Below are positions 16,353 through 56,790 of a DNA stretch of 64,000 nucleotides, piece after piece. A program made the translations under genes and the position numbers. The notes below the pieces were generated by a model. It made no database searches. It saw only the letters and a list, made by a program, of their open reading frames with translations, and was not told the DNA's origin. Position 1 is the stretch's first letter, and each line of letters starts with the position of its first letter. The DNA comes from Amphibalanus amphitrite (Eukaryota; Arthropoda; Thecostraca; Balanomorpha; Balanidae). The DNA is taken from assembly GCF_019059575.1 (NCBI RefSeq), contig NW_024881869.1, forward strand, positions 248,001 through 312,000, given 5' to 3'.

Positions 16353-19300
16353 CCCGCGGCGGGGCGGGGGGTGGGGCCGGGGGTGGTGACTGATGTGAAC
16401 ACCCCCTCCCCTGCGGTTTTTCGCAGATATCTCAAAAACGGCGGCGCTCCTGCACGTGTATCTTCTCCGCACATGTGAAAATTTCAGACCCAGGTCTCTC
16501 AAGGTCAGGTCACCAGGTCACGCCAAGTGACCTCACCTCAGAAAAAAATGCTCGTCATAGCAGCTACACCGACTGAACGATTGCCTTGAAACTTTCAGCA
16601 ATTGATAAAAGTAACAGCAGGTATTTTAAAACGTATAGGTATCTCGGAATTTTGATATCGGTGACCTAAGGTCAGGCCAATTTTGCGGCCTCTCCATTAG
16701 GTATTATAAGTCAATGGGAGAATATTGAAAAGCGTATGTTTTGCACGGACGCCATTTTACAGGGCCTATTTTAACATGTTAACTGGGGGGGGGGGCGGCA
16801 AATGCCCCCGCACTCAACAGAATTGCCCCCCTAGTCGTCGAGATTTGCCCACTATAAAAATGGGCATAAAGGAACAGGGTGACAAACATACTACGTAACT
16901 ACTGTGACTTGTTTTGCAATGGATGTCAAGTGAGTCAGTCTGTAAGTAATGACCAGTGGTGTATCTAAGGGTGGGTCATATGGGTCATGACCCCCCACCC
17001 TCTTGGGGCCCGGGGACACCACAGGCCTGCCAGGGGCACCACCGGCCTGTCAGGGGCACCACAGGCCTGTTGGGAGCACCATCAACCTAGCAAGAGCACC
17101 ATAGGTCTGCCAGGGGCACCACAGACCTGCCAGGGGCCCCACCGGCCTCGCAGGGGCACCACCTTGGGCCTGTCAGGGGTACCACCACAGGCCCGCCAGG
17201 GGCACCATAGGCCTGCCAGAGGCACCATAGGCCTAGCAAGGGCGCCACGGACCTGTCAGGGGCACCAGAGGCCTAGTATGGACACCACATGCCTGGCAGG
17301 GACACCACCGGCCTCGCAGGGACTGGGACACCTTGGGCCTGTTAGTGGCACCACGTGCCTGTCGGGGACACTCCAGGCTTGTCAGGAGCACCACAGTCCT
17401 GTCAGGGCCCAGGGGCACCACCATAGGCGCGGGAGCCGGGGGGGCAGTGGGGGCAGCTTGCCCCCCCAACTCTGGGGCCGTGGGGGCGGTGCCCCCATAG
17501 CTTTGAGACGGAATACCACACTTTTTTTTGCAAATGTTTTCTTTTTTGTTGAAAAAGCCGAGGGGTGAAAAATAAGTGGCCTAAAACCGGTGAGAAAACT
17601 AGATTTGGGGGTACCCTAGGTTAATCTCTATTATGGTGTGCCCCCCCAGTCGGAAAGTAGTTCCCGCGCCCCTGGGCACCACCGGCCTCACGTGGACACC
17701 ACCGGCCTCGCAAAGGCATCATGGGCCTGTCAGGGGCACCACGGGCCTGTCGTTGGAACTTCAGGCTTGTCAGGGGCACCACAGTTTTTTCAGATGCACC
17801 GGCGGCCTAGCACCATGGCACCATGTTTGGCCGAGGTCGCGATTCGGCGTATGTCGCCTCGCATTAGCCGCGCGTTTGCAGTCTTTTCGTGGTTTCAAAC
17901 GTTCAAACATGGGATATGATGTTGCTCCCATGCATTAGGGTGGGTGTCAAGATCACCGGAAGGTCAGGTCAGATCATTTACCTTTGATGACCTCGGTTCA
18001 CATTTTCGAGTTTTATATGTTTCTAGGCTAGTTTTTGGAGCTGAATTCGAATTAAGCAACCATTTGACCATTTACGAAGTAGTTTTGGTGCCTTCGTAAC
18101 ATGTTACGAAGCTGTCAGAGGCGGTTGCCACCTACTACGAATACCCGGCAAAACCCTTACTGGTTGACCTGACCTGACCTGACCTGGCCTAAATGCATGA
18201 AGACATCATCTATGATCATAACTAACATGATAGTCGTGATCAGCACCCCGAAAAACCATAGCAGCCACTCTTTACGACGCTCTAACAGGTCCCGATTTTC
18301 CCGACTTTTGGGTCAATGACCTGACCTGGAAGGTTAACCGATGACCTAGGACCTCAAAATTGGGTATAATCGGCTTCCTTTCATCACGGGCAACACGGTC
18401 GTTTTTTCCGCGAAGCTCTAGCTCGATCAGGGGCGAAACGGCAAGGGGGAGGGTCCAACGGACCCCCCCCCTATACGCTCGCTACTGGAAACACCAATAC
18501 GGGCGAGGGTTAATGGATTATTAAAGACAATTTTCCAGGTTGCCCCCCAGTCAAATTCCCTTAAAATAGGCTCTGCCATTTTAGACACTCTCAAACATCG
18601 GGATGCAGGTAAAATTGACACACTGAACCGGAAAATAGCAACTGTGACCTCTCGTTATGTCCCCGAGGTCATCTCAGGACTCAGGTCACGAATAGTATCT
18701 AACAGTTTTTCGCTAATAATTCTGATAGAGGCATGCTAGACCGACGGAAACGCCTTAGATGTATTGGGCACGACGATGCGGATCGACTGATAATTAACAT
18801 GACCTTTTCCGGTCAGGTTAATCGATCATCAGGTTAATCAAAATTTGACCTGCTGAAGTCAAATTTTCAAGTTGAACTTTCAAGGTCAAATTATAGTTCA
18901 TTCGACGTGTCTCGACGAGAGGAACACGATGCTGGCAACAGAAATGTCGTGGCTTTTTCTAGTCAAAAGTTATTGCTGAAAAACACTTTTCGTAAAACGG
19001 CTACTTTTGGAGTTTTTGCCCTCTGGAGGCTAAACCGTTGACCTGAGGTCAAATCTGAAGACCATTAGCGAAGGAGTGTTAAAAGAGCTCTCAAATGCGC
19101 TTTTCCGCGGCGCTTGTAGCTTTATCGGTTCCCGAATTAGCCGTTGGCAGTTTCCAAAATGCTGAGATAGCCAACATTTTACCTTTGGTGACCTCTGGTG
19201 ACCTGACCTTTGACCTGACTGAAGTGTTTTCTTCCTTTTTTGGAGGTTCCTTCGAATGCCACTTACTGCGTGTCGCTACGTGGCCCAGGAGCCGAGCTAG

Positions 19301-32382: not shown

Positions 32383-34157
32383 CAGGGGCGGATCCAAGGG
32401 GGGGGTCACATGGGTCATGGCCCCCCCTTGAGGCCCGGGGCCCAAAGAACTGCCAGGGGCACCACCGGCCTATCAGGGGTATCACAGTCCTGACAGGGGC
32501 ACCACAGGACCGCCAGTGGCACCACAGGCCTAGCAGGGACACCACGGGCCTGGTGCCCCTGGGCCCTGACAGGACTGTAACGCCCCTGACAAGCCTGAAG
32601 TGTCCCCGGTAGGCACGTGGTGCCCCTGACAGGCCTGAGGCGCCCCTGCAAGGGCGGTGGTGCCCCTGGCAGGCCTGTGGTGTCCATGGCAGGCCTGTGG
32701 TGCCCTTGCTAGGCCTCTGGTGCCCCTGACAGGCTTGTAATGCCCCTGGAAGGACTGTGGTGCCCCTGGGCCCTGACAAGCCTGAGGTGCCCCTGACAGG
32801 CCAGTGGTGCCCTTGCTAGGCCTGTGGTGCCCCTGGCAGGCCTCTGGTGCCCCTGACAGGCTTGCGGTGCCCTTGGAAGGACTGTGGTGTCCCTGGGCGC
32901 TGACAAGCCTGAGGTGCCCCTGACAGGCCCGTGGTGCCCTTGTTAGGCCTGTGGTGCCCCTGGCAGGCCTCTGGTGCCCTTGCTAGGCCGCTGGTGCCCC
33001 TGGCAGGCCTCTGGTGCCCTTGCTAGGCCGCTGGTACCCCTGCGCCCGGAGAGGACTGGTGCCCCTGAAAAGTCTGAAGTGCCCCTCGGCAGGCCCGTGG
33101 TGCCCCTGACAGGCCCAAGGTGCCCCTGCGAGGCCGGTGGTGCCCCTGGCAGGTCTGTGGCGCCCCTGGCAGACCTGTGTTGACTGGTGCCCCTGCTAGG
33201 TCGCTGGTGCCCCTCACAGACCTGTGGTGCCCCTGGGCCTTGACAAGCCTGAGATGCCTGGCTATGACAGGCTCGTGGTGCCCCTGATAGACCAGTGGTG
33301 CCCTTGCTAGGCCTGTAGTGCCCCTGGCAGGCCTCTGGTGCCCCTGCTACCCCTGCGCCCGGAGAGGACTATGGTGCCCCTGAAAAGCCTGAAGTGCCTC
33401 TCGACAGGCCCGTGGTGCCCCTGGCCCCTGACAGGCCCAAGTTACCCCTGCGAGGTCGGTGGTGCTCCTGGCAGACCTCTGGTGCCCCTTGCAGGTCTGT
33501 GGTGCCCCTGGCAGGCCTGTGTTGACTGGTGCCCCTGCTAGGCCGCTGGTGCCCCTCACAGGCCTGCGGTGCCCCTGGAAGGACTGTGGTGCCCCTGCCC
33601 CTAGGGGTGCTCATGGGCCCAACAGGTCCGTTGTGCCCCTGACAGGCCTGTCGTGTATACTTGCTAGACCTGTGGTGCCCCACTTCCTGGCAGGCCTGTG
33701 GTGCCCCTGGCGGGCCTGTGGCGCCCCTACAAGGCCGTAGGTGCCCCTGAAAGGTTTGTGGTGTCCCTGGAAGGACTTTGGTGCCCCTGACAAGCCTGAA
33801 GTGTCAAGGACAGACCCTTTAGACGCCAGGGTCAAGTTCGTCGGACTGACAACGATTTGCTTACCTGATAACGTTCCTGGTAAGTACTAAGTACTCACTA
33901 CTCAGCGTCCACAACATATATACACATAGCATCTATGCACATAGCACATTCATATATAGCTTACAATTGGTAAATGTGGTTGTGGCTAAGAGTTAAGATA
34001 CTGACTAAAAATAAAAAATAAAAAGAAAAAAACTGAAAATGGGGGCACCACCAAAATGAAGTGGACGAAATCCGTTGAGTTTTTAATTTTGGGTATAGGT
34101 AGGGGCACCACTTCGATTCATGACCCTCCCCTTGGAGTTTTCCTGGATCCGCCCCTG
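32383..34157 (+). mobile_element. hAT-like non-autonomous element carrying a minisatellite
   Basis: The ends are inverted copies starting CAGGGGCGGATCCA. A perfect 8-bp target duplication, CATCGAGC, flanks it (32375-32382 and 34158-34165), the length typical of hAT elements. Most of the interior (about 32450-33810) is a minisatellite of about 20-24 bp units such as GGCCTGTGGTGCCCCTGGCA. All ORFs in it are by-products of the repeat. No transposase. Confidence 0.85.
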
Positions 34158-34165
34158 CATCGAGC

Positions 34166-35076
34166 TCCATGCATGAGGATAGACATAGGATGAGCTTAGT
34201 CTGGGATATCAAAGCAGGATGCAATATACATAAACATGTTTTATTACTTCTAGGAACTGACTGATAGCTGCAATTTGATAACTGAACAAACCTGATCAGG
34301 AAACTCAAATTGGGTCAAATTAAGGCTACATCATATCAAATTTGGTTTGGCTGGGTTAAGTGAGGTTAGGGCGTATATTATGAGCATTTAATATTTTGCG
34401 AACCTTCGCAAAAATGCTGAAATTGATATGATTTTCTATAAATTAAATTTGAAAAATTAATCTTAAATGTTGCTACCGTAATGTTTGGTTGCTAGGTAAG
34501 TACAAAGTTACTGACTTATGTTATTTTGATGTTTTTGCTGGAAAGGTATTAAGTGTGGCATGATAATAAATTTGAGGAAAATGCTGCAAAACTTGATTGA
34601 TAAATGATAAGTGAAATGATGGGAATCATCAAATTGTCTTTCAAACAAGTCAGAATATGATCAAAATCTAGTACTTTAGTGTTTTCTTTTACTGTTTCTT
34701 TTACCTTTTCTTTTACTTTTAAAATACTTTTTAGTATTTTCAAGTTTTTTTCTGTGTACTTAATCTGAGATGGAACAGCTGATTCCAGGCATAAAAAGCT
34801 GTTTGGATTAGCATTAGGTATGCATCTGAAGTATTGCCATTATTGATTAGACATTGTAAGTGAGAATGGAGATCTAATAGGAAGAGATTTGTCTTGGGGT
34901 GGGCATGTGTGCACCGAGTCATTTGCTGTAAGTGAGAATGGAGATCTAATAGGAAGAGATTTGTCTTGGGGTGGGCATGTGTGCACCGAGTCATTTGCCA
35001 TTTTTGAAATGTGTTTAGGACAAATGCAAATGCCTTTTTCAGGTTTTGAACATCTAGTCATTTTCTACAAGAAGAC
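34166..35076. other. upstream region of par-6
   Basis: AT-rich, no ORF of note. Contains an exact 72-bp tandem duplication (34856-34927 and 34928-34999), each copy starting with the consensus splice donor GTAAGT. A good acceptor (CCTTTTTCAG) ends at 35042. Together these suggest a 5' UTR intron ending 35 nt before the par-6 ATG. Confidence 0.4.
34856..34999 (+). repeat. 72-bp direct tandem duplication with a donor site in each copy
   Basis: Two essentially identical copies each begin GTAAGTGAGAATGGAGATCT and end GAGTCATTTGC. The near-identity implies a recent duplication. Confidence 0.85.
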
Positions 35077-38100: not shown

Positions 38101-39688
38101 AACCACTGGGCTTCTACATCCGAGACGGCACCAGTCTCCGGGTCACGCCTACAGGGCTGGAGAAGGTCGGTGGGGAGAGGATATGGGAATGTTCAGAGGA
38201 TTTATGGAAGATGAGATAGTTTGCGTGGGCCTAAGTGTGGATAGAGAGATAAGTTTTTCTTTTTGGCCTAAGGGGTGTTTATGGGATTGCTAATGTTTGG
38301 GATGTCAGAAGGTGTTTTTTTTTCAAATAAGGTTATTTGAAAGGTGGTAAGGATTGAGCTGTCTTCATGGCGATTGTCGATAGGATTCATGCGATACTTT
38401 TACTGATGAACGAATCCTAGATGACGCTTAAATAAAAGCAAAATGATATAGCCTTAGTTAAAACGACATGACCCGCTATTCAATTCTTCTTTCTTATGAC
38501 TTCTTAACTTCAGTTCTTCATTCTTCTGACTTATGAATTCTGAGTTCTTACACGTTCTGATCGCTGCCCTGTGACCCCAGGTGCCCGGTATCTTCATCTC
38601 CCGCCTGGTGCCGGGCGGCCTGGCCGAGAGTACCGGTCTGCTGGCCGTCAACGATGAGGTCCTCGAGGTCAACGGCATCGAGGTGGCCGGCAAAACACTC
38701 GACCAGGTATGTGCTAAGCTTGTGTCGCGCCGGGACCGAGATGGAATCCGGTGGCCTGTCACTGATAAAATGTTTGATATTTTTTAAGTGAACGATATTT
38801 CAATTTGTCTTTAACTTTCGTTCTAGCCTGTTCGCAGTCACATTTTGAATTAGCGTCACTATTCAGGCTTCCTTAGCTTGCTCTCCTGATGAATGTACAG
38901 CCCTCAGCAGACTGCGTGGTAGGTATTCTTTATGCGACAAAAGCGATAATAACTCAAAGGCTATGCTATCAGTCGGTCGGAACTCACTGCAAATAGATGC
39001 ACCATGCTCCACTCCTTCGATTAGGTCTATCACTAAACAAGGTAAACGCCTTGTGTGGCAACAAAATGCAAGTTTGTTTTGGGGGCAAATATAAACTTTT
39101 GGGTTTTGTTGCCGAACTAGATGGAAAATGAATACGGTGATGATGCCAATTTAAGGTGCGGAGTCTCGCGCGTCTTGCTGTCACGATTTCCGAGTGACCA
39201 ATAGCACAGTATTCGCGTTATTCTCGTTTTTGTCAAAAAAAGAATACCTACCACGCAGTGATAGGTATTCTTTTTATTGGGGCTTTGGGCTGTACTTATA
39301 CAAATGCAAACCACGTGAATCTTTTTTCATCGCTGCACACTGTCGTCCTTGACAGCCCCGGCCCCTGCCACGTTCTCTGTTATGCGTCTGTGACTCCATG
39401 CCTTCATCCTTGCATTGAACCGTGTCACATGCCTTGACCCTGCACCTTCCTCAGGTAACCGACATGATGGTGGCCAACTCTTCCAACCTGATCGTCACCG
39501 TCAAACCGGCCAACCAGCGCTACCCGCTGGAGGCGGAGCGGGGCAGCAGCGCGCGCACGTCCCAGCTGAGCCGTGTGTCGGCTCAGTCCGGCCGCTCCAC
39601 ACGCAGTTCCGACTCGGGAGGAGCCGGTCCGGAGGATCTGAGTGGCGGACTGCTGGCCGGCAGGAACGACGGCGTGCTGCATCTCTGA
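35077..39688 (+). CDS. par-6: Par-6 polarity protein (six exons, 308 aa)
   Basis: Gene-level entry. Join 35077-35148, 35435-35660, 35984-36111, 38025-38165, 38581-38706, 39455-39688. All introns are GT-AG and phases agree. Par-6 is the scaffold of the Par-3/Par-6/aPKC cortical polarity complex: PB1 binds aPKC, the semi-CRIB binds Cdc42-GTP, and PDZ binds Par-3, Crumbs or Lgl. Seen here: LIEVKSKFDAEFRR opening the PB1 domain (about residues 18-95, with the acidic [15 protein letters not shown] loop), [18 protein letters not shown] (semi-CRIB, about 138-155), GFYIRD and [19 protein letters not shown] (PDZ, about 160-255), and the C-terminus DGVLHL, a PDZ ligand. The start is the first ATG after an in-frame TGA at 35047 and gives MSK, as in Drosophila. 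Intron 3 carries a transposon. It faces CPSF1 tail to tail. Confidence 0.96.
35435..35660 (+). CDS. par-6: par-6 exon 2, PB1 domain
   Basis: Starts [14 protein letters not shown] after a C-rich tract and ACAG; ends ...LLRIILQRK in phase 1 at AAAG|GTGCGG. It holds almost the whole PB1 domain with its OPCA-type acidic motif. Confidence 0.95.
35984..36111 (+). CDS. par-6: par-6 exon 3, PB1 to semi-CRIB linker
   Basis: Encodes [18 protein letters not shown]...YPEDFRQ; acceptor CCCACAG, donor CAG|GTAGAG. The linker is less conserved, but PEDFRQ directly precedes the semi-CRIB as in other Par-6 proteins. Confidence 0.9.
36577..37858. mobile_element. TA-flanked TIR transposon in par-6 intron 3
   Basis: The left end CAGGGCTGGGCAGATAAATT and the right end are inverted copies with one change (CAGGGTTGGGCAGATAAATT on the minus strand). 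TA flanks both. At 1.28 kb it has the length of a Tc1/mariner element, and interior reading frames are broken, so it is probably a decayed copy; no transposase motif was confirmed. Confidence 0.75.
38025..38165 (+). CDS. par-6: par-6 exon 4, semi-CRIB and start of PDZ
   Basis: 47 codons, [20 protein letters not shown] to TPTGLEK. Acceptor GACAG, donor AAG|GTCGGT. Phase 0 at both ends. Confidence 0.95.
38581..38706 (+). CDS. par-6: par-6 exon 5, PDZ core
   Basis: 42 codons from [18 protein letters not shown] to GKTLDQ, nearly identical to insect Par-6 as remembered. Acceptor CCCCAG, donor CAG|GTATGT. Confidence 0.95.
39455..39688 (+). CDS. par-6: par-6 exon 6, end of PDZ and C-terminal tail
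   Basis: 77 codons plus [23 protein letters not shown] completes the PDZ; a short Ser/Arg/Gly tail ends in DGVLHL. The tail is shorter than in Drosophila, giving 308 aa against about 350. Confidence 0.95.
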
Positions 39689-41892: not shown

Positions 41893-44800
41893 CTGCCGGT
41901 GGTAAGAAAGAGAAGTTAGTAAAGACGCTGAGTGAGAGACAGGTTGCTACTTGCTAATTATCTTAGTCGCCCAGAACCGCTGATAAGCTAGTGTATTTAG
42001 ATGACTAAAAAAACACTACTACAGCTTCAAGGAAAACGATATGTTCCAATGTACCGCGCACAGCCAAGCCGACTAGGAATATCACGGCTCTGCTCGAGCT
42101 GTCGCAAGTGTTCACAAGTTACGACCGAACAGAGAACGCCAGATGGTAGGCTAAGGCACGCCATCTGGCAGATGCGTGTTTGGCAGATCCAGCAGTCAGC
42201 GTTCGGTAGATGCAATCTGCTCGATACGCCTCGCATGACAAATTTGGGTTACTTGATGAAATGTCGTTTCATCATGATAAGGTCATTGAAATTTGTATAT
42301 AACCCAGAGGTGTGTTAGTATATAACCCAGAGGTTCCGTATAACACACCACCCAGAGGAGTTAGGTCACTCGTAGTAATAAAAATGTACATACAGCTTTT
42401 AAGGTCTTCATAGCTCGGAACAGTTGCATTCTCAATAATGCACTTTCGCCATCAATCACATCAAGACCTCCGGCGCGGCGGTTTGAGGTGACGGTATGGC
42501 CCTTGTATTATTTCGACAGTATGAATGAAGACGCTATCCAACAATGGTCCCTCACGACATACCGTAAACGGTCATGTGTCGTTTGGCCACGATGGGCGGG
42601 TGCTTCCTCTCGCCCGAAGTATCCTTCAGACGACACCGGACCCGCGTCATCGTAGTTACTCGCGAACAGAGCTGTCAACAGAACAGTCAGAATCAAACAC
42701 CGGTCACGAGTCATCGTGGTCACTCGCGAGCACAGGCTGCCAACAGAACACAAACTGTCAACAACAGAGCACACCGTACCCGGGTCATTGTGATTACAAG
42801 CGAGCACAGCTGTTAACAGAATACAAACTGTCAGCAATAGTCTCCGGACCCGCGTCATGGTGGTTACACGCGAACAGAGCTGTCAACAAAATACAGGCAG
42901 TCAGCATCAAACACCGGACCCGAGTTATTGTGGTAGCTCATGAGCACAGTGCTGCCAACAGAACACAAATTGTCAGTATAAGACGTCACCGGACCCGTGT
43001 CATGGTGGTCACACGGCAGCACAGCTGTCAACAGAGCAGTCGAGATTAGACGTTAGAATAACGTAATACCCTGCGAACACACAGGTCAACATCTGACACC
43101 GGGTCATAGACTATGATCCGGTATCAGATGCTGGCCCACAGACTCAGCGGCAAGCACTCTGTTGATGAAATCGTCATCATGAATATTGAACAATGATAAA
43201 TCTCAGGGAAAGGACGCTGTCACTGAAACTTCCAGTTGAAGCACAACGAATCGAACAGCTTCAATAAAAAAAAAACATTGCCACGTCCACTCACTCACAC
43301 ACACGTCACACACACCCCAAGTGAACCCTTCTCGCCACCACCCCTGGAGCTCCGTCGGACACCTACGTTGAAGTCTGCCCTGCGCATGAGTCTCTGTCCT
43401 CCGTTGCTCTCCCGGGCCTCCGGTTGGTACTGAAACACCACCAGGTTCGCCTCGGCGTCCGTCGCGATAAACCTGGGGAGGAAGAGACGCAGAACTCTGT
43501 CAAAAGTGGAAGGAGGAGAGCGATCAGGTACAGGGTGGAAAGTAATTACGCGAACATGTATTTTCTTACAATTTTCACCGTCAGTAGAGCATTTTTATGA
43601 GTACGGGCTGTCATGGAACATAATTGGTCCTGTTTGTTGTCACCTCATCTACCAAAAGTGACCTAACTTTGAACAATGACCTGGAAGGTCTTAAACACCT
43701 CTCCACTTAACCCGCGCCCCGTAGGGCTACCGGCGGACCCTACCACCCGTAGGGGGGGGGGGCCGTTTCGGCCCCCCCCTAAGATCTCGGAAAGTTACCG
43801 GCCGATTTTCAAAATTCAAACGGCGTTCGATAGCCCCACCCGGGAACTACCTTGTGACCAAATTTCATTGACCTAGGTCAAACCGATGACGTCACAGGTC
43901 AGGTCAAAGGTCAGATTTTCACCGTTCACAGGCAATTCAAGAAATGTGCTGTGAAAGCGAGTAAATTGGCAATTTATTGAAAACCATCGATGGTACATTG
44001 TTCGTCAAACACATACTTTGCTATCTGAGGTCACTGATACCAGGTCAGGTCACAGCGAGGTCAGGTCACCGGGGGTCACAATATGAATGTGTCGTGTGAT
44101 ACATGTTTTATGGTCCATTTTACATGACAAATGCGATTATGTGGGTTAGGCAGCCTTTGGGGCCAGCCTAGGTCACGTTTTTGTGAAGGTCAGGTCAAGG
44201 TCAGGTCAAATTAGGTCAAATTTCAAAGTTGATATTTTTGCATAAAATGGGTATCGATTCGATGCAGCTCGTCACGGGGAGTCTAATGGTGGTCTTCGTT
44301 TTGCTCTACGAGTTCTAGAATTGCCATAAATTGAGTTTGAAAATTTGACGTCATCATTTTTGAACAGTTTTTTCGCTATAACTTGGCCAAAAAACGAGGT
44401 ATCGATCTGAAATTTGGTATGTAGATAGAAGACGGTAGGCACTATCACATATATTCCGGTTTTTTCGAAACTCAAAAAACTTTTTGGATTTTTTGGCGAA
44501 TATATCCAAAAAAATGCTTTTTTGATTTTTGGGGGTCAAAACTCAAAAATTTCAAAAATTCGAGATAGCAGTTTTGTAGCCCTTTCAATTCTACACCTTT
44601 TATGTCTGATTATTTTTCTGTATCTTCAAAGCTGTAGTCCTGACAGGTCTTCTCGCGAAGGTCTTTTTTCGGTCGAAAATGACAGAACATGACGTCACTC
44701 TGACGTCATTTGTGGCCAACCTATCATAGCCTCTGGAAAAATTTTTGGTCACAATGTGTAAAATTGATGCTCGGAGGGGTCCTGAAAGTTTGGTGGCGAT

Positions 44801-47800
44801 ATCTCCAGCCGTTTAGGAGATATCGACCGAAAAGGACAGGGGGGGGGGCCGTTTCGGCCCCCCCCCCTACGGGGCGCGGGTTAAAATGGTGCAGACACCA
44901 TACGCTGCACAAGACCGAAATGGGCAAAGAGCTCAATTTGGAGCTGCCAGGGAAAGCGTTTGTGATTATTTTCGCTGGACTGGCGGAGAAGGGATTCGTA
45001 GCGGTCTCAGCACCAGCATTGCACAATTATACGTTTTTTTTAAACATAACACTTGAGAGGACTTAAAAAGCAAAGCCGTCCGCGGCAGCAACCCCTCGGC
45101 GAATTCTGTCGCCGGGCGGGTGGTCACCATGTCGGCGACAAAACGACGCCAGTCGACCCGAAAACTGGCAAAATAGCTTACTCTGGCCGGGTACCCGATC
45201 TAGGATATCACGATTCGCACATTAATACGCAAAAATTCGAAAATTAAGTCGTACAAACCCTCGGGATGACCAAATTCACGAATTAACAGCAGAATTGTTA
45301 ATTGAAGCTTTTCAAAGACAATCAAAGATGGACAGAGGAGGACAGGCAGCTGGATTTGTGGTTGGGTGAGACATCTGTGAAACTGTTTCATCCGTCAAAC
45401 CTGCAGAACAACTGCTCTGAGGGCTGCTGTTGCGTCCTATGTCCCGTCCGTCCCAACCTTCAAACATCCGGCAAAGGAACACATCAGTGGGTCACGAGCC
45501 CCCGGGTGGTGTCAGAATTGCGTGTAGCGCTAAAAAAGGTCACTAAAAATAAAGTATACAACCGGTGGAACATCATCCAAGACGAGTGTCTCTGTCTAAT
45601 CCACCGTGCAACGAAAGGGGCAAAATGACTGAGCGCACTTTTTTGCCTGACGCAAAGAAACTGCTCTTCGTGATTGGTGAAATCCTTATATTCACGGCCA
45701 ACAAAACGCAATACTGGTGCTGTGAGAACCTGTTTTTCTTCAGGACATACAAAAGCTGATCTGGGAAACGCCTGGGCCTCAATTCGATTAAAAATCTCCA
45801 GATGACTCCTCAGGAGACCGTCTAAAAGCTGCAAGGAGCCACCAATACCGATTACCTCACTGGACAGCTCCATAAGGTGTGGGCTGAGCTTTGGCCAACA
45901 GATCTTCACATGCTGATGTAAATCATGCCGGAACGCCTATGTCAATGCATCGCAACTAGATAAGGATAAAGTAAAACATATATTGTTTATGTCACCGCCG
46001 TTTTTTCATTACTAGAAGACGAAAAAGTATGTTCGCGTAATTACTTTCCACCCTGTAGGCATGTGCTGCGGGGCGTGGAGTGTGAAGATGAGCGGTTCAG
46101 AAATATGCCTAAGTGGCGGTAGTAACTAGTAGCCTAACGCCATGACAAGCGCCGGAAGATATTGTTTTTAAGCGACTTGCGTTTCCCCAACGTATTAACC
46201 CGCGCACCGACGGGGGTCTGCGCCAACTTCGCACCGACGGGGGAGCGGATGACCGCCCCCCCCCCCCTGAGATCTCGAGAACGAAGCAAGATAGCGACAA
46301 GCGGTAAACGGCATCGGATACGCACGGCCAGGATCTACAATTTTTACTAAGGTCATTTTCAGGTCAGGTCAAAGATGACGTCACAGGGGTCGAAAAAGTC
46401 AAAATGGCGGCGCTAGATATGGAGAGAGTGTTTCTCGAATAACTTTCGAATGGGGAATATTTGTTTCTGGTCCCTAAAAAGCTGTTTCTGGCACCTAATT
46501 GCTGATCAGCCCCAAAATGCTTATTCGACCCTAATATCTGAATCTGGCACCTAATTGCTTCCACACAGCCTAAAGTTGCCAGATCGTCTAGTTGAACTCC
46601 GTATTTGCTGTTTGCTGATTCAGCACCAAAACCAAAACATCCAGCACCTATTTTATTCCACGTTTGCCTACCTAATTCGCGTAATCTTCCTGATTTTATG
46701 CATCCTAACAACATGAACGTTGCATTCGGTGATGTCAAGTGCCATTTTCGCCAGTGGAGATAATGGTTAATGCCATTTCTAGCCAAAAGAGAATCACTAG
46801 CCAGCTATGGTGCAGCATAGCAAGACGCTCCTATGCCAGCCCGCTATGTAGAGACTAGAGATTATTGCACCCCCAGCCATTTTAACGTGAAAAGTTTGGA
46901 TCCGTCACTTCCAGCCAGGCTCTCAGGTCATAAACTGGAGTAAAGCAAAATCTCAACTCTGAACAGACATGCCACGCAACCGGCCCTCTTTTCAATATTA
47001 TTAGCTTTCTGCAATCATCGTCTGACTCCATCTCGATCAAACGCAGCATCCGGTTTCTACAGGGGCGTTTGACTGACCGGCCACACAATAACCAAAAACA
47101 AAATCAAAGCTTCATGCACACATATGACATAAGTAAGAAACGGATGAAAAAGGCACAACCACGGCACAACTCTGCGCGGCAAACAACGGATAATGTCCCA
47201 CGCAAGATCCCGCGTTTCTTCAGCGGCCTTGAACGGAATGAAAACATTACATTTCTTTTTTGGAGCTATTTGATGACGTCAAAAAAATACAATACCCGTT
47301 TTAATGGTCAAAATGGAGACAATTACTCACAAAAATGTTTCCCTTTAAGCATTACAAATAAATACTTTTAAATATTTAAATGACATTGTTTTTTCAAACA
47401 AATCAATATTATTTGCTTACTTTAACGTCATATACAATGCTGAGATCACTACGGGGCTGTCTTAGAGTGAAGCTGCACTGGCAACCTTTAGGCTAGACTC
47501 CAGGGGTCATTATGCCAGAACAACATGATTCTACCAGCCAGTAGTTCATTTTTCTACTAGATTGGTGCTACGCTCAGCATTTAGGTGCCAGATTCAGAAA
47601 AAAGAGTAAGCTGTACCGTTGAATAGGTGCCAGAAACAGCTAATTAAGGTCATTTTCCATGATTGGTGCTGGTATCCACCAAATAGATGCTGAGGACCAA
47701 TTTTGGGGCGAGTCAGCTTTTAGGTGCCAGAAATAGCTTTTCTGGGACGCAATTAAATGGCGTCCCTTTCGAATTAGTCAAGATAGGAACAAACTAAGGG

Positions 47801-50800
47801 CATCATCGTGATCCTCTCGTCAATCCGCATCGAATGATATATATATATGTTGACCTCGAAAGGTCAAGGTCAAAGGTTGACCTCAGGTCACGTGACCTCG
47901 AGGTCATCATGTATATCATTCGATGCGTCTTGACGAGCTGAACACAATGAGACCATCTACGCGTCTGTATCTTGTTCCTGTACGGAGTTATTGGCCAAAA
48001 ACCTTTGGTGACCTTTGATGACGTCACATGACCTCACAGCTGCCCAACAGCAAAACAGACCTCAAGGTAGTGAAGGTTGATCGTATATGAAGTCATGTAT
48101 GGTATATGGGGCCATTCCGACCCGTTTTAGTGGTAAAAACAGGGAGTTGATTTTTCCCCCATTGACTTATAATGGGGAGGTCGCGAAATTGACCTGACCT
48201 TAGGTCACCGATATCGAAATTCCGAGATATACAAATTGTAGCTACTAATGACCTAATAATATCCTGCGACTTTCAAAGGCCTCCGACATCTACTGTAGCT
48301 CTGGCACGGTGACAAAGTTGCAAAAAAGTGACTTGAGGTTGGGTCATTCAAAGTGACCTGGTGACCTGACCTTAAAAGGTAGGAGGTTCAAACTTGCACA
48401 CCATGTGTAAAATTGATGAGGTTATAGTCATACCAAATTTCGCGCCGCGGTTTTCCCGCTATTCGTGAAAAACCTCAGGGGGGGGGGCGGATATCCGCCC
48501 CCCCCCCCCCCGTCGGTGCGCGGGTTAACCCGCGCCCTGCTGGGGGGGGGTGTTTGAACACCCCCCCTTGTGGTTTTTCGCGAATATCTCAAAAACGGCG
48601 GCGCGGAGCGCCGCCGTTTTTGGTACACCTTACCATACATCAATTCTACACATGTTGTGCAAATTTCAGACCAAGGTCATTCAAGGTCAGGTCACCAGGT
48701 CACTTGAAGTGACCTCACCTCATAAAAAGTTTCAATGTCTGTCATAGCTACACCGAGTGACCGATCGCTTTGAAACTTTCAGCGATTGCTAAGAGCAATA
48801 GCATGTACAAAATGTATATCTCAGAATTTTGATATCGATGACCTAAGGTCAGGTCAATTTTGCGACCTCCCCATTATAAGTCAATGGGAGAAAATTGAAA
48901 TGCGTCTCTTTTGGACGAAAGACATTATAAACACTCCCAAACACTGAATTACAAGTGGTTTAGACACACTGAACATGAAAATGGTGTCCGTGACCCCTGT
49001 TTATGCCCTGAGGTCATCTTAGGTCACGAATGGTATCTAACAGTTTTTCGCAAATAACTTTTGATAGAGGCATGCTAAAGCGATGAAAACACCTTAGATG
49101 TGTTCAGCTCGACGATACGGATCGACTGATATGCAACATGACCCTTTCCGGTCAGGTCATGACCCTGACCTGAGGTCAAATTTTCAAGTTGACCTGTCAA
49201 GGTCAAGTTATAGTTCATTCGATGCGTCTTGACGAGAGGAACACGATGCCGGTAAAAGTAAGCTCGTACAATGCTTGGGTCAAAAGTTATTGCAGAAAAA
49301 CTGTTTCCGAAAAAATCGGCTATTTTTGCAGTTTTTGCCCCCTGCAGGCAAAACCGTTGACGTTAGGTCAAATCTGAGAAAATTACTCAGAAAGGGCGTT
49401 AATAGGGCTATCGAATGCGCTTTTCCGCGGCGCTGTAGCTCTATTGGTTCCCGAGTTATGCGTTGGCTTCTTGGAAATTTTCGACATTCGACCTGGAAAT
49501 CGGCGAAATTTTGCCTTCAATGACCTCTGGTGACCTGACCTTTGACCTGACCAAAAAATTGACCGAAGTGATTTCGTCATTATTTTTGACGCTCTTTCGA
49601 ACGCCGCCTTCCGCGTATCGCTACGTGGCCCAGGAGCCGAGTTAGAAGGGGGGGTGTTCAAACACCCCCCCCCCAGCAGGGCGTGGAAATCCAGGACCCC
49701 CAGCCGGGCGCGGGTTAATCTACGCGCACTCCGATAGATCCGGTACGCTGCTGAAATAGAATCGGAGGAAAAGGAGCCAAACTGAATGTGATAGGGCGTC
49801 CACCTATGCAGCACATTCGCTGTTCTTATTAACTGAACATCATTCTAGCATCGTCATATGCGATATCAAAAGTCAATCCTTCGATTAATTACTCTTACCC
49901 GACTTGTGTGTTGTCGACCAGATACTCGACGCCGTAGATGTCCCTGGGCTTGTAGTCCCTGGCCAGGAGGGAGATGGTGCGGAAGTCCTGCTGGAAGCGC
50001 AGCACCGACACTGAGTTGGAGACGTCCGAGGCCAGGATCATGTTCTTCATGGCATGCAGCTCGTGGATGTACACCTGGGTGTCGATGAATGCCAGACCGA
50101 CCAGGTCGTTGTTCTTGACAGTCCATACGAATACCTGGTGACGAGAGGGGGAAGGTGTCAGTGATTAATGTGTGGCGAGGGAGGGGTGGGTAGGGGTGAG
50201 GACAGTCGTTGGGAACTGAACGTTGTGGAGGTCAGCGTGATAAATAAGAGGGAGGACGTTGAAAGAAAGACGCATGTTGTTTAATAGGACGTGTAGTTCG
50301 TTGTGGTTCTCAAATCCAATTCATATAAACATTTCTAGAGTTGAAAAGTGGACATCGTGGCCGTAATCGTTCGAAGACACAAAAGAATAACAGCATACAA
50401 TAGCACTCTTGCAAAATTAACAATACAACAAAAGATGCACAGCATTAGCAACTGTCTTGATCAGGCTGAGGCCCCATTCATTTCACATCTAGCTGCGGTC
50501 CGCACCTTTTGTCCGACGGCGCCCAGCAGGAAGCCGGCCACGGAGCTGATGGCTGTGACCGGCGCCGACTGCTCCTTGGTCAGCAGCGTCTTCAGCTTGT
50601 TCTTGGTCAGCGGCTGGCCCGGCTCGGGCACCACCTCGATGACGTCCATCAGCATCAGCTGTGAGTACCGTAAAGTGGGGCTATTTGAGACAGTGGGGCT
50701 ATTTGAGACAGTAAGGTAATGGTATAGTAAAATCGCTGTAAAATGAAAACCGTTTGATGTTTTTTCGTCATTTTTGCTTAAGCTGATGTGGAATTGAACA

Positions 50801-53800
50801 ATGAATGCTCTGAATAACCTTTTTGAAAATTTCGAAAAGTTCTGAAAGAAATTTGCAATAAAATACGAAATACAGAAAAACGCACAATTTAAGTTGCTCG
50901 AAAAGGACCCCTACCTGCAGCTTAAAAAAGTTGAAGTTTTAACAGCTTCGCCACTGTATCTATCGCTACTACCTTTTTGCTTATAGGTTAAGCACATTTT
51001 TCATGAAAATATTATATATTGTTAACGGTACTGCCGATTGCGCAACCCATTGCCTCAGAATCCCGATGATGCCCACCTGGTCAAACCTCAACGGATATGC
51101 CAAATAGCTGATGATAACGGTGATGCGATGCACCCGAGAAGACTTACCGCCATCTACCTGAAGTGCATCGAACGTTCGACATAAGCAACACCGGTGAATC
51201 GGTCGTGGTCATAAACGTGCAGTGGGTTCATGGTAGGTCCTTTTAGCAGCAAGCAATATTTACATGTTCGTAGTGTAACATAATAACCCTTTAGCTGGTG
51301 ACCAAACTAGTTATTCTGATGAATATGTGCTTAAAATGTGCTTCATCAGTCACTGACTCATTCGACAATCAACATATGTCTACCTTGGTTGACCAAAAAA
51401 CACCATCGAATGTTACTTAACGCATGAACGTACTGTTAGGTGAGCCTATACAAGTACTTGATGTGGTAGGGTAACCGGCCAATTGATACGGCATGCAGCG
51501 ATCGAGGAAAATCGGCATAAAATCAAAACCGTTTAACATTTTTCTGTTATTTCTTCGCATGGAGATGTACAATGGAACAAACAATCATGCAGACCATTCA
51601 CTCAAATGTTTTGGGAATCCTTTTGCCTTGTTTGATTCATTACAGTGTGCTTCATAAGGCAGCGAGACTGTCTCAAATAGCCCCACCGACCTTCGGTATA
51701 TCTGTTTTCACGTCACCGGGGCTATATACAAAAACTTACTTTCAAAATTTTACTGTCGATGACTTTAAAATAGTCCTTGATGATCATCCTGTCAGTTTGA
51801 AAGCTATGGGTCACATCATATTATGATAGCCTTAGCATATAGTGATGCAATTTTATACCCTACCGAAATGAAGTGTCCTACGAAAAAGGAAAAGATTGAA
51901 TATAAAGGTCATATAACAGTCTTTGAAAAAAACAATTTTTGCCAAAATGATCAAAATTCAATTTCCAAATGCTTGGAGTTTAAAAAATTATCTCTAGCGT
52001 CACTGATTTTCTTTAATTTCCTTGCAACTAAAACTGTCTCAAATAGCCCCACCCTATGGGGCTATTTGAGACAGGCTTTAACATAAAAAATAACCTCAGT
52101 CATTATTACTAGCTGAACCAAAATACACCTATATGAAAGAGCTCACAGAGAACTACATTTTTGCAATTTACATGCTATAAGAAATATGAGCCGTCTTAAA
52201 GGGAGAGGCCAAAAACTTTAAAATCCGTTTCAAATAGCCCCACTTTACGGTACGTGCGATAGGGGCGTTAGAATACGGACACGGGGATGGATCGGAGACT
52301 TGGGACCAATGTAGTACCGAGCGAGTGGTGGGAGGGAAGGGAAGCGTGAGAGCGAACACGGGACCGGACTAGAGACTCAGGCAATAATGTGGTACGTACC
52401 AGTGGAAGCGAGGGAATGGGGAGCAAGGATACATAAACGATAACAAGTTTTGATAAGCACATTTAAAGTCAGCGGTTTCAAACAGGGAAACTTGAAGCAG
52501 TGCATTGTCATTGTAAGTCAATGGGTAAGAGAAGACGGATGAAGATGTGCCTCTTAACCCTATTCCTGGCGGGGGGGGGGGGGCCTCAGGAGCCCCCCTG
52601 AGGTTTTTTGGTTATTTCTCCCAAACGCGTTGAGCTAGGAAGCTCAAATTTTCGGACTTTTCCTAAAAGGCTTCTACGCAACATGTCTGAAAATTTTGAG
52701 TTGATCTGACTTCAGGTCAGGTCACCAGAGGCGGTTTGGTGACCCTACCTCAGAAAAGTTTGCAATCACGCCAGAGCTAGAGTTTTTGACCGATCAATTT
52801 CTTCTCTTCAGGCTTTAGTTAGGGTACCAGTATGTGCAATTTGTATATCTCGGAATTTTGATATCGGTGACCTAAGGTCAGGTCAGTTTCGCGACCTCCC
52901 CATTATAAGTCAATGGGGGAAAAATCAACTCCCTGTTTTTACCATTAAAACGGGTCGGAATGGCCCCATATACCATACATGACTTCATATACGATCAACC
53001 TTCACTACCTTGAGGTCTGTTTTGCTGTTGGGCAGCTGTGAGGTCATGTGACGTCATCAAAGGTCACCAAAGGTTTTTGGCCAATAACTCCGTACAGGAA
53101 CAAGATACAGACGCGTGGATGGTCTCATTGTGTTCAGCTCGTCAAGACGCATCGAGTGATATACATGATGACCTCGAGGTCACGTGACCTGAGGTCAACC
53201 TTTGACCTTGACCTTTCGAGGTCAACATATATATCATTCGATGCGGATTGACGAGAGGATCACGATGATGCCCTTAGTTTGTTCCTATATTGACTGGTTC
53301 GAAAGTTATTCGAGAAAAACTCCCCATACCTAGCGCCGCCATTTGGACTTTTTTGACCCCTGTGACGTCATCTTTGACCTGACCTGAAAATGACCTCAGT
53401 AAAAATTGTAGACCTTGTCCGTACGTATCCCTTGCCGTTTACCGCTTGTCGCTATCTTGCTTCGTTCTCGAGATCTCAGGGGGGGGCGGTCATCCGCCCC
53501 CCCCGCCAGTTTCTTGTCCCGGCGGAGCCCGCCAGGAATAGGGTTAAAGCCGCTGAATTTGGCAGCAAACAGGGGGCGTACTTACTCCACTTCCGTTAGA
53601 AGTAACACCAGTCTACCCCGTTTACTCTTAACCTCTTGCTCCCGTAGGCCCTTTTCCTTACAGACGACCCCTTTCCGACGGTCGGCGGCCTACATTTCCC
53701 TTTCAAACTTCCCCACGACAGCTGTTAGCCCACCTGTCCCTTGCAGACGACGTCCTCCCCGTAGCTGTGGTTGGTGGCCACGGCGATGTACATGCGCTGA

Positions 53801-56511
53801 CCGGACCGGTGGCCCTCGTACTGCAGGCTGACGTTCTTCAGCACAGTCACCACCTCCCACTCCTCGAACTCGATGGACGCCTTCGGCACCGGCTAGAAAT
53901 GGGGGGGGGGGGGGACGGGGGAGAGGTTAGAGGGAGACATCCAGGGAAGAGTGGACAATTATTGTAAAATGAAGTGTTAAATGGGAGGGTGATGTAGAGG
54001 AGCCAAATGAAGGAGGTGACGTGAGGGAGCAACACATAATTCAATGTGATGATTATTCCAAACAACGGAATTCGTATACCATGTGTGATACTGTTTTTGA
54101 TGGAGCCTAGAAAAAAGATAAAGACGTTGTTCACCGTGCATTATCCACTATCATTCATGTTACACACCAAAATAGTTTCATTTCAGATGCAGACCACCAG
54201 TGTCCTGTTAAGTTCTCACCGCTATCGACCTCACTCCTCCCCATCTTCCCCACCCTGCAACGGGCCAGCACACACGCTACTCTGTAACTAGTCTGTAGAG
54301 TGTATGTACACTGTACCTCCCAGGAGACGGGCGAGTACAGCTGTATGGTATACACCTTCTGGTACGGGTACGGGAACCGGTCGCCCTTGTCCACTGTACA
54401 GTGTACCAGTACAGTACTACCAGTGCAGTACCCTCCCGCTCTATACCCTGCACACTGTAGGTTACGTACCTCCCAGGAGACTGGCGAGTAGAGTTGGATG
54501 GTGTACACCTTCTGGTACGGGTACGGGAACCAGTCACCTCTGTCCACTATACAGTGTACCAGTACAGTACTACCAGTGCAGTACCCTCCCGCTCTATACC
54601 CTGCACACTGTAGGTTACGTACCTCCCAGGAGACTGGCGAGTAGAGTTGGATGGTGTACACCTTCTGGTACGGGTACGGGAACCGGTCACCTCTGTCCAC
54701 TATACAGTGTACCAGTACAGTACTACCAGTGCAGTACCCTCCCGCTCTATACCCTGCACACTGTAGGTTACGTACCTCCCAGGAGACTGGCGAGTAGAGT
54801 TGGATGGTGTACACCTTCTGGTACGGGTACGGGAACCGGTCACCTCTGTCCACTATACAGTGTACCAGTACCCTCCCGCTCTGTACCCTGTGCACTGTTT
54901 GTTACGTACCTCCCAGGAGACGGGCGAGTACAGTTGGATGGTGTACACCTTCTGGTACGGGTACGGGAACCGGTCACCTCTGTACAGTGTACCGCCCAGT
55001 ACCCTCCCGCTCTGTACCCTGTACACTGTATGCACGTACCTCCCAGGAGACGGGCGAGTACAGCTGGATGGTGTACACCTTCTGGTACGGGTAAGGGAAC
55101 CGGTCACCCCTGTCCACTATACAGTGTACCAGTACCCTCCTGCTCTGTGCCCTGTACACTGTAGGTTACGTACCTCCCAGGAGACGGGCGAGTACAGCTG
55201 GATGGTGTACACCTTCTGGTACGGGTAAGGGAACCGGTCACCCCTGTCCACTATACAGTGTACCAGTACCCTCTCACCCTGTACCCTGTACACTGTATGT
55301 TACGTACCTCCCAGGAGACGGGCGAGTACAGTTGGATGGTGTACACCTTCTGGTACGGGTACGGGAACCGGTCACCCCTGTCCTCCACACTCAACTCCTT
55401 GTCGTCGCCAGTGAACCTGCCGCAGGGGAGACATGTGGTTAGCAATGGGGACAACGGGAAACGACGGCAGAGATAGTTAGTGAGCGATTTGGGAAACAGC
55501 GAGACAATGTATTCTAGTGAGCTAGACACATGGTGGAAAATGGCAATGACAGATAGGTATCTAGCAGCTGCGCTGTTCTGGGGCATCGCAATTTGTCGAG
55601 AGGTCGGAAAATCACTGGGAAAGATTACTTAGTAACAGTTCTGAATCCTGATGAACATGCCTGATGAACAAGAACATGTAAGTACATCTGCTGAAAGCTC
55701 GAAAAAAAAAACAAGCAATGACCGTAGATGCATAGATGCAGAGACACCTAGAGATCGCTAGAAAAACCAGTAAAAGACTAAGTGAGAGCTCGGGGAAACA
55801 GCTATCGGCACCAGCAGAGACACCCAGCGACTGCTCAGAGAAACAGCTATCGACGTCAGCAGAGACACCTGGTGACTGCCCGAGGAGACAGCGGGCGGGC
55901 GCGGGCCCCACCAGCAGTGTTCCCGAACACACTACTGATGCGGACAATGTTCGGAGAACTGAACAGCAGGGGCGTATGGGTTCTCTAACGCAGGTAGGTG
56001 GCGTGGTCTGCTCCCACGCCGGACCAGACAGAGCGGCATGGAATTAAAATTTGCTGTCATACAGTTAAAACAGGACTGCAGCAGTGAAGAAACTCCATCG
56101 CTGGCAGAAAAATGCTACCGAGTGATTTGGCTGACGTTGGTTAGTTGCTTGGTGTTGTAAAAAGGCATTTGTTGATGTCTGTGAGAAAAAAATGAAGGAC
56201 CATAACTGCACCGAAAGACGTGTAAACATAATGACTGGTGTGTTCGAAACCACACTCGAACTCACTCCACACTCCACAGTCATTAATTAGGACTAAGGGC
56301 AAGGACAGGAACCAGAAGAGTTGGGCACAGCACGTGTTACCTACTTGTAGACCTTCATGGACTGCTGGGCGTTGGACGAGCACACCAGGTGCGTCTTGGT
56401 CTCCAGGTGGTAGCAGATGATATGTGGCGTGCAGCGCAGTGGGATCTTTCGGATCGGCCAGGGCGCATCGTAGAGCAGGTGGGGCGGCAGCACGCAGATC
56501 CGCATCTCACC
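41576..56511 (-). CDS. CPSF1: CPSF1 (CPSF160), C-terminal part, eight exons
   Basis: Gene-level entry. In transcript order the exons are 56511-56345, 55416-55308, 53892-53734, 50658-50506, 50134-49899, 43472-43367, 42671-42563 and 41892-41576. Phases agree throughout and the sum is 451 codons plus stop. CPSF1 is the 160-kDa scaffold of the cleavage and polyadenylation specificity factor, acting with WDR33, CPSF4 and FIP1 at AAUAAA. Diagnostic stretches: [88 protein letters not shown] and the terminal [12 protein letters not shown], all collinear with human CPSF1 (about 1440 aa). This is the C-terminal CPSF_A/RSE1-type beta-propeller and tail. No upstream exon was found as far as 64000. Introns carry several transposons and three exon-boundary repeat arrays. 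Confidence 0.95.
42563..42671 (-). CDS. CPSF1: CPSF1 penultimate exon
   Basis: 36 codons plus one base: [20 protein letters not shown], then [16 protein letters not shown]. Acceptor GTTGACAG, donor G|GTATGT. The aligned length to human after RADF[H/N] is equal (VGAHVNTFWRTPCR against [14 protein letters not shown]). The first 40 bases or so are the first unit of the adjoining minisatellite. Confidence 0.8.
42634..43040 (-). repeat. minisatellite of CPSF1 splice-acceptor/exon-start units
   Basis: About six units of 65-75 bp. On the minus strand each includes a form of TGTTGACAGCTCTGTTCGCG and ATGACGCGGGTCCGGTG, that is, the acceptor and first codons of the 42563-42671 exon. Units have diverged by substitutions and small indels. 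The first unit is the working exon boundary. Confidence 0.85.
43367..43472 (-). CDS. CPSF1: CPSF1 exon [14 protein letters not shown]
   Basis: One base plus 35 codons to RRADFN. Acceptor TCCCCAG, donor AAC|GTAGGT. Matches human GFLVSDRDRNLMVY...LLRRADFH. Confidence 0.93.
43531..46055. mobile_element. Tc1/mariner-type transposon relic in a CPSF1 intron
   Basis: The ends are inverted copies starting CAGGGTGGAAAGTAATTACG and TA flanks both. Near the right end, plus-strand frames around 45855-45958 read [10 protein letters not shown] and [12 protein letters not shown], like the last residues of IS630/Tc1-type transposases, but stops and frame changes break it. A TTAA element (43711-44880) is inserted inside. 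Its left tip is 58 bp from the acceptor side of the 43367-43472 exon. Confidence 0.75.
43711..44880. mobile_element. TTAA-flanked MITE with perfect 16-bp TIRs, 1170 bp
   Basis: TTAA (43707-43710 and 44881-44884) and CCCGCGCCCCGTAGGG inverted without mismatch. Both ends carry the same hairpin, a G-run, CCGTTTCGG and a C-run. The interior is nearly identical to 25470-26659 from AGGTCA arrays onward. Nested in the 43531-46055 element. Confidence 0.88.
46199..48524. mobile_element. TTAA-flanked element with perfect TIRs, interrupted by a hAT-like insertion
   Basis: TTAA at 46195-46198 and 48525-48528; TIR CCCGCGCACCGACGGGGG. Subterminal hairpins are GCGGAT(G/A)(A/T)CCGC between G- and C-runs. 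Without the insertion it would be about 1 kb, and it closely resembles the 52558-53543 element in reverse orientation. Confidence 0.85.
46451..47765. mobile_element. hAT-like element nested in the TTAA element
   Basis: The 8-bp duplication CTTTCGAA (46443-46450 and 47766-47773) brackets it. The empty-site version of the host is visible in the related 52558-53543 copy (about 53290, minus strand). Subterminal inverted repeats share TTTCTGGCACCTAA. No transposase recognised. Confidence 0.75.
48529..49714. mobile_element. TTAA-flanked MITE, 1186 bp, abutting the previous element
   Basis: The left TTAA (48525-48528) is shared with the 46199-48524 element; the right TTAA is at 49715-49718. Left tip CCCGCGCCCTGCTGGGG; the right end has the same motif plus about 35 extra bases. 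Both ends have a hairpin with core TGTTTGAACA or TGTTCAAACA. The interior is homologous to 16353-19366. Confidence 0.8.
49899..50134 (-). CDS. CPSF1: CPSF1 exon [16 protein letters not shown]
   Basis: 78 codons plus two bases, ending VDNTQV. Acceptor TCACCAG, donor GG|GTAAGA. Matches human [20 protein letters not shown] and what follows. Confidence 0.95.
50506..50658 (-). CDS. CPSF1: CPSF1 exon [15 protein letters not shown]
   Basis: 51 codons, phase 0 at both ends, ending GAVGQK|GTGCGG. The acceptor is TACTCACAG, and a transposon end begins only nine bases upstream of the exon. Confidence 0.95.
50668..52250. mobile_element. TA-flanked TIR transposon abutting a CPSF1 splice acceptor
   Basis: Inverted ends CCGTAAAGTGGGGCTATTTG and a TA duplication (50666-50667, 52251-52252). 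The motif GGGGCTATTTGAGACAG recurs near the left end and, inverted, inside. AT-rich interior with no recognisable transposase. Confidence 0.8.
52558..53543. mobile_element. TTAA-flanked MITE with perfect TIRs, 986 bp
   Basis: TTAA at 52554-52557 and 53544-53547; TIR CCCTATTCCTGGCGGG, exact at both ends. The interior is an inverted near-copy of the 46199-48524 element, yet that element has a different TIR. G/C-run hairpins at both ends. Confidence 0.88.
53734..53892 (-). CDS. CPSF1: CPSF1 exon [15 protein letters not shown]
   Basis: 53 codons, phase 0, ending VVCKGQ|GTGGGC; acceptor TTTCTAG. Aligns with human IPNARIELQEWEHVTC...VTCRGR. Confidence 0.93.
54317..55307 (-). repeat. seven extra tandem copies of a CPSF1 exon 3' part plus donor
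   Basis: Seven near-identical units (coding ends at 54317, 54470, 54623, 54776, 54910, 55040, 55174) follow the authentic exon (end 55308). Spacing is 153, 153, 153, 134, 130, 134 and 134 bp. Each holds 69 bases encoding [20 protein letters not shown] then SWE and a donor: six GAG|GTACGT and, in the last, GAG|GTACAG. Copies lack the first 12 codons of the real exon; an AGTGGACAG stands at that edge. In the 153-bp units the frame reads through. Confidence 0.92.
55308..55416 (-). CDS. CPSF1: CPSF1 exon [12 protein letters not shown]...SPVSWE (parent of the array)
   Basis: One base plus 36 codons; acceptor GCGGCAG, donor GAG|GTACGT. It is the only copy with a full 5' part and pyrimidine-rich acceptor, so it is taken as the constitutive exon. 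Matches human MTGEEKEFETIERDERY...ISPVSWE. Confidence 0.92.
56345..56511 (-). CDS. CPSF1: CPSF1 exon [18 protein letters not shown] (first seen)
   Basis: 55 codons plus two bases, ending QQSMKVY|AA-GTAGGT; acceptor TTCCAG. Matches human [27 protein letters not shown]. Confidence 0.94.
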
Positions 56512-56790
56512 CTGGAACAGAGGGGAGAGATACACACATCAGCGAATTGTACAACAGATGGGGCGGCAGCACGCACATCCGCATTCCGCATCTCGCCCTG
56601 CCGAGCGAGGGATACAGTTCCACACATCACTCATCAACCACACAAGAGCGCGGTCAGTCAAACAGATCCGCAGCTAACCCTGTAAGAGAAGGGGCAGATC
56701 CACACATCGCTCACGCTTGCTTCTATGGAAAATATCCATACACGCAAGTCCACATCTCACCCTTCCAGAATGGGACATGATTAGAATTAA
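56496..56790 (-). repeat. decayed tandem copies of a CPSF1 acceptor/exon start
   Basis: Upstream of the 56345-56511 exon there are three more degenerate copies of its acceptor and first codons (at about 56547-56600, 56665-56700 and 56740-56770 on the minus strand, for example GGTGAGATGTGGA), spaced 70-100 bp. They do not keep an open frame with good splice sites. Confidence 0.6.

Follow-up and report, generated by a model that had tools for sequence, protein, structure and literature searches.

The genome of the barnacle Amphibalanus amphitrite contains a CPSF1 exon whose end, together with its splice donor, is present in eight head-to-tail copies that differ almost exclusively at synonymous sites. 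The array lies within a 64,000-nucleotide stretch of contig NW_024881869.1 (positions 248,001 to 312,000 of the forward strand), hereafter the window. Boundary minisatellites of this kind are known, but this one is found in an unexpected place and shows a pattern of change that the known behavior of such repeats does not predict. The closest precedents are the amphioxus 'mirages', minisatellite-like tandem duplications of exon-intron boundaries with units of 10 to 160 bp and an unstable unit number (PMC3087553, PMC3902484). The array is probably of this type, with the first donor giving the normal CPSF1 mRNA.

An eightfold array at a CPSF1 exon end

The CPSF1 exon at 55416-55308 on the minus strand ends in a 69-nt coding tract, and this tract with the donor that follows it makes up the repeated part (Table 1; on this strand each tract starts at the higher of its two coordinates). 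Successive tracts are spaced 134, 134, 130, 134, 153, 153 and 153 bp apart, leaving seven spacers of 65, 65, 61, 65, 84, 84 and 84 bases, each opened by a donor; the Tandem Repeats Finder (TRF) rows that cover the array score 1048-1365. The same 23-residue peptide is encoded by seven of the eight tracts, with a single arginine-to-tryptophan replacement in unit 7. GT follows all eight tracts, as GTACGT in units 1-7 and as the weaker GTACAG in unit 8, and units 1-7 share an intron part directly after the tract. The 153-bp units carry a 19-base insertion in the alignment, and the three 153-bp steps form one open frame (54155-54901, 248 aa); from unit 1 to unit 5, the steps of 134 and 130 bp are not divisible by three and lead into stops. 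An eightfold array of this exon end with its donor, codons kept save for one Arg-to-Trp change in the copy at 54470, and a switch from 134 or 130 bp to open-frame units of 153 bp had all been proposed in the original prediction, and the tract positions, TRF rows, CPSF1 match, common peptide, spacings and 248-aa frame bear them out.

The array exon belongs to CPSF1: when the neighboring exons were joined manually, all 144 query residues aligned with human CPSF1 (6bly_A; 1e-42). Altogether, 21 CPSF1 exons were taken from matches at positions 74818 to 41579, in coordinates extended from the window into the adjoining stretches L017-L019; the exon limits, which come from tblastn with a human query, are approximate. 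When the 807.6-Mb assembly was searched, all 12 matches of a 274-aa CPSF1 query fell at one locus (contig C372), and the four matches of the array DNA were the array itself. No second haplotype of the locus was found in these searches with the array DNA and the CPSF1 query, which score the best candidates only and skip very common words, so that single-locus results are no proof of absence.

Differences among the copies

Eight sites vary among the eight tracts, a small number; seven of the differences are synonymous, all of them at third codon positions, and the eighth is the replacement in unit 7. When changes of the same types were placed at random on the majority sequence (Monte Carlo), at least seven were synonymous in 36 of 100,000 placements (P = 0.00036), and a simple binomial for seven of eight gives 0.0002 to 0.0026, with an assumed silent fraction of 0.227 or 1/3. 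Read in the other two frames, the same sites yield 1 and 0 synonymous differences of 8, and in the antisense frames 3, 4 and 0 of 8. Homogenization of the copies is thus incomplete at silent sites, while the encoded protein sequence is preserved. Change that is nearly confined to synonymous sites would be a sign that the copies are, or recently were, coding. The original prediction covered neither these all-third-position silent differences nor the two arrays described next.

Two further boundary arrays in CPSF1

We extended each of the 21 exons by 40 flanking bases and compared it with the 2.5 kb of same-strand sequence on either side. Edge copies were detected at three exons, all neighbors in the gene: 67290-67138, which lies outside the window, the exon starting at 56511, and the array exon 55416-55308. 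Calculated by hand, chance alone would place three marked exons among 21 next to one another in 19 of 1330 draws. For 17 of the 21 exons, there was no match at E < 0.05. Two weaker signals were not counted, namely, a possible weak copy, near 53668 (within ~53650-53734), of the donor edge of the next exon (19 nt, 84%, E 0.62) and an 18-nt intronic match to exon 50661 that lies away from the exon edge.

The array at exon 67290-67138, which ends in FLYFNKE, is of the donor-edge type and consists of four copies, with intron starts at 67137, 67087, 67041 and 66989. Three of these are identical over 21 coding bases, and the last one has lost its GT and carries two changes, the only coding differences in this array, both synonymous. 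The exon starting at 56511 has an acceptor-edge array of four copies, including the exon itself (56511-56763), and this array has decayed, with 7 bases inserted in one copy and the exon's frame interrupted by a stop in another. A search of the assembly with these acceptor-edge copies returned one match, themselves. Three neighboring boundary arrays, one decayed and two not, form a natural series for the birth, use and loss of splice-site copies.

Table 1. Coordinates of the CPSF1 exons and boundary repeats.
Feature	Position	Strand	Donor	Remarks
Parent CPSF1 exon, contains unit 1	55308..55416	-		starts in phase 2, ends in phase 0, from sequence
Unit 1 coding tract	55308..55376	-	55307	69 nt
Unit 2 coding tract	55174..55242	-	55173
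Unit 3 coding tract	55040..55108	-	55039
Unit 4 coding tract	54910..54978	-	54909
Unit 5 coding tract	54776..54844	-	54775	153-bp type
Unit 6 coding tract	54623..54691	-	54622
Unit 7 coding tract	54470..54538	-	54469	sole non-synonymous change, R>W
Unit 8 coding tract	54317..54385	-	54316	3 private synonymous changes; weak donor GTACAG, then unique intron
Next CPSF1 exon	53734..53892	-		its acceptor closes the array-holding intron
Preceding CPSF1 exon, parent of decayed acceptor-edge array	56345..56511	-
Decayed acceptor-edge copies	56542..56763	-		exon-start positions 56597, 56679, 56761; 82-86 bp apart
Four-copy donor-edge array, CPSF1 exon ending FLYFNKE	66989-67168 (L017, window-extended)	-		units 46-52 bp, spacers 25-31 nt

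Probable origin of the array and predicted use of the first donor

In the scenario that we consider probable, the last ~78 exon bases and ~55 bases of the following intron would have been duplicated in tandem, the array would have grown to eight units via unequal exchange, slippage or conversion, and a 19-bp insertion would have given rise to the 153-bp subtype, which then multiplied. The original unit probably held ~78 exon bases because most spacers, as read from the sequence, end in GTGGACAG(G/A), resembling the exon's own GTGGAGGACAGG. We infer this order of events, along with use of the first donor and an ordinary CPSF1 product: unit 1 is joined to the real acceptor, so the first donor would yield the normal mRNA, and units 2-8 would leave with the intron in most transcripts. 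Several observations agree with this scenario, namely, the unit structure and spacings; a first donor that scores as well as that of any other unit by weight matrix (4.2 in each of units 1-7, -0.8 in unit 8); the presence of the two further boundary arrays, one at a donor edge and one at an acceptor edge, just upstream in CPSF1; and the position at the array edge of unit 8, whose three private changes are the most of any unit.

Other observations weigh against it. Units 2-8, if unused, should be free to drift, and for this reason the 7 : 1 ratio of synonymous to non-synonymous differences is hard to explain. Non-synonymous sites vary at 1 of ~53 positions compared with 18 of 61 gap-free spacer positions (Fisher P = 7e-5; P = 0.003 with 13 of 65 when the hard-to-align spacer 3 is left out), and synonymous sites, variable at 7 of ~16, resemble the spacers (P = 0.37). 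Unit 1, at the other edge, has no private coding change and equals unit 4. Nor is use of the first donor assured, because spacer 1 contains a GT (55277) with a score a little above that of the exon's own donor (4.6 vs 4.2), use of which would lengthen the exon by ten in-frame, stop-free codons. Finally, we simulated arrays that undergo turnover while selection acts on unit 1 alone. Across five turnover rates, the comparable snapshots with no more than one non-synonymous site numbered 0 of 7, 0 of 97, 0 of 125, 0 of 50 and 1 of 7. The models were kept simple, with settings of our own choosing, but they make exclusive use of unit 1 appear less likely. A first population simulation, run with six settings, allowed no comparison: out of 360 snapshots, none entered the range of the real array in any setting.

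A mirage with a single functional donor would not by itself explain the synonymous bias, which needs either rapid building from diverged alleles or use of the copies in some transcripts. Under the first of these, unequal exchange between long-diverged alleles of a functional exon would have built the array recently and quickly, with only the first copy in use. We simulated this process, and with the faster exchange rate, at its earliest time points, arrays showing no more than one non-synonymous site made up a share of 0.40 (n = 10), 0.109 (n = 101) and 0.099 (n = 212) of the comparable arrays, or 0.667 (n = 3), 0.12 (n = 83) and 0.131 (n = 107) when spacer diversity was matched as well. Barnacle diversity can be high: putative alleles of 66 genes of Balanus improvisus differ by 5.5% on average (PMC8270832). 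However, in all other settings and times the share was at most 0.055 and often 0, and only one haplotype of the locus was found in the assembly. We regard such an origin as unlikely. The original prediction had also invoked recent expansion or gene conversion; this explains the near-identity of the copies but leaves the bias toward synonymous differences unexplained.

Assembly might instead have created the number of copies or the mix of unit types, by joining reads from different haplotypes. The change of synonymous variants coincides with the switch from 134- to 153-bp units. In addition, the 94 kb of the locus covered here gave no convincing match to the exon for human CPSF1 residues 1306-1338, and therefore the assembly may be imperfect. 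Such joining, however, would need reads that already held tandem units, two more boundary arrays are located nearby, and an artifact alone leaves the kept protein sequence of the interior copies unexplained; we consider this explanation highly improbable.

Splice signals and the possibility of in-frame cassette exons

The original prediction of eight competing donors stands with respect to the GT after every tract, but not with respect to strength: the array appears to offer seven equal predicted donors, not eight. Donor choice, intron retention or decay-coupled isoforms, as raised in that prediction, are possible outcomes. If donor 2 or a later one were used with nothing removed before it, an in-frame stop in spacer 1 would be retained, with which decay-coupled isoforms would fit.

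Use of the copies in some transcripts could take the form of in-frame cassette exons. Each unit would then provide an exon of 42 bases, CAG|AAG...GAG|GTACGT, with phase 0 on both sides and 14 residues, and the left 27 bases of the tract would serve as branch point, pyrimidine tract and 3' splice site. Selection would see every copy because the frame is kept whatever number of 42-base units is included. An identical, stop-free set of 14 residues is encoded by all eight 42-base segments, all five variable sites within them are synonymous, and the gaps upstream of seven units are 88-111 nt long, which we take as enough for introns. The tract-internal CAG|AAG acceptor has a score of 1.8, or 4.2 for units 2 and 3, which is near the 2.3 of the exon's own acceptor, and of the gene's 222 exonic AGs no more than 9, that of unit 1 among them, score at least 1.8. 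Nevertheless, the best AGs near CPSF1 exon starts are above 1.8 in 13 of 20 cases and below it in 7, some at exons with unsure limits; these scores are weight-matrix predictions, and the donor of unit 8 is weak. Furthermore, the same arrangement is unworkable for the donor-edge array of exon 67138-67290, given its short units and spacers. We consider it quite unlikely that the units act as cassette exons, and about as unlikely that the minisatellite has turned into eight interchangeable 42-base in-frame exons giving CPSF1 isoforms with a variable number of 14-residue repeats. If it had, every copy would be held to the protein sequence, and the array would represent an extant stage on the way from a mirage to new exons.

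Several other mechanisms were considered and were rejected or not favored. Donor-hiding hairpins with TACAGTGTAC/GTACACTGTA-like spacer arms were discarded as a general mechanism because, of the eight folds computed for the seven spacers and for the sequence that follows unit 8, only that of the spacer of unit 1 stood out (z score -2.44; others -1.79 to +0.10). Under the Rogers model, splicing would run from AAG|GTG to AAG|GTG via AG|GT within the tract; with acceptor scores of -2.4 or -4.7, it is not favored. Introns ending in ACAG or ATAG before the tracts of units 2-8 score -1.9 to -5.4 and do not fit the frame. Selection on read-through of all units is rejected for units 1-4, where the 134/130 steps hit stops, but may apply to units 5-8, where the three 153-bp steps are open.

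Relation to known boundary repeats

Mirages have been reported in Adh3, the globins BflGb6 and BflGb9, and TnC, with similar repeats in PGBD5, and are reported not to disturb normal splicing (PMC3087553, PMC3902484). The globin paper also proposes a model in which a mirage unit could be recruited as an exon, and boundary minisatellites as a source of new introns and exons (PMC3087553). As in mirages, the tandem units in CPSF1 span a coding exon edge and its splice site, at donor or acceptor edges, and are of comparable length (tens to ~160 bp in mirages, with 81-100% identity among BflGb6 units). Judged from sequence, the anatomy of the CPSF1 array thus fits the description of a mirage. Mirages are described as evolving in concert, with edge units less homogenized; in the CPSF1 array, units 5-7 share changes, units 5 and 6 are identical in their coding parts and unit 8 has three private changes, but unit 1, at the other edge, has none. 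The copy number of mirages is described as varying between haplotypes or cells; for CPSF1, the assembly searches yielded a single locus. Unlike mirages, which are described from cephalochordates, the arrays reported here are in another gene and affect three neighboring exons, and the copies differ almost only at synonymous sites, a pattern not mentioned for mirages in the portions of the reports available.

Tandem duplication that supplies a splice or proto-splice site has been reported for potato RdRp (PMC4974935) and for Drosophila, where introns have been argued to arise through tandem duplications inside exons, so that the mechanism has been proposed for arthropods (PMC2891723). In contrast to those cases, the eight CPSF1 units span an existing boundary, and nothing in the sequence indicates that a unit has turned into a new intron or exon. 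With several donors after one acceptor, the array also resembles tandem alternative splice sites. Those are usually a few bases apart, whereas the CPSF1 donors are 130-153 bases apart and in a minisatellite. In capped listings of the open-access literature, covered mostly by titles and first lines, we noticed no multi-copy boundary array described in an arthropod, which is weak evidence of absence.

Other features of the locus and window

Between the neighbors of the CPSF1 exon that was not found (41893-43361), there is a tandem array of 5.7 copies of a 70-bp unit (42632-43035). A weak match to residues 1306-1338 at 39305-39358 was taken as chance. The GC content, by 8-kb stretches, is 0.45-0.53 across the window, which points away from amphioxus. 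An inverted pair of 481-bp repeats, 97% identical and perhaps a transposable element, is located at 47766-48246 and 52829-53305. A 20-bp minisatellite of the CAGGCCTGTGGTGCCCCTGA type is present in both orientations at 32564-33798 and 17013-17407, and positions 34855-34998 hold an exact 72-bp tandem duplication (100% identity).

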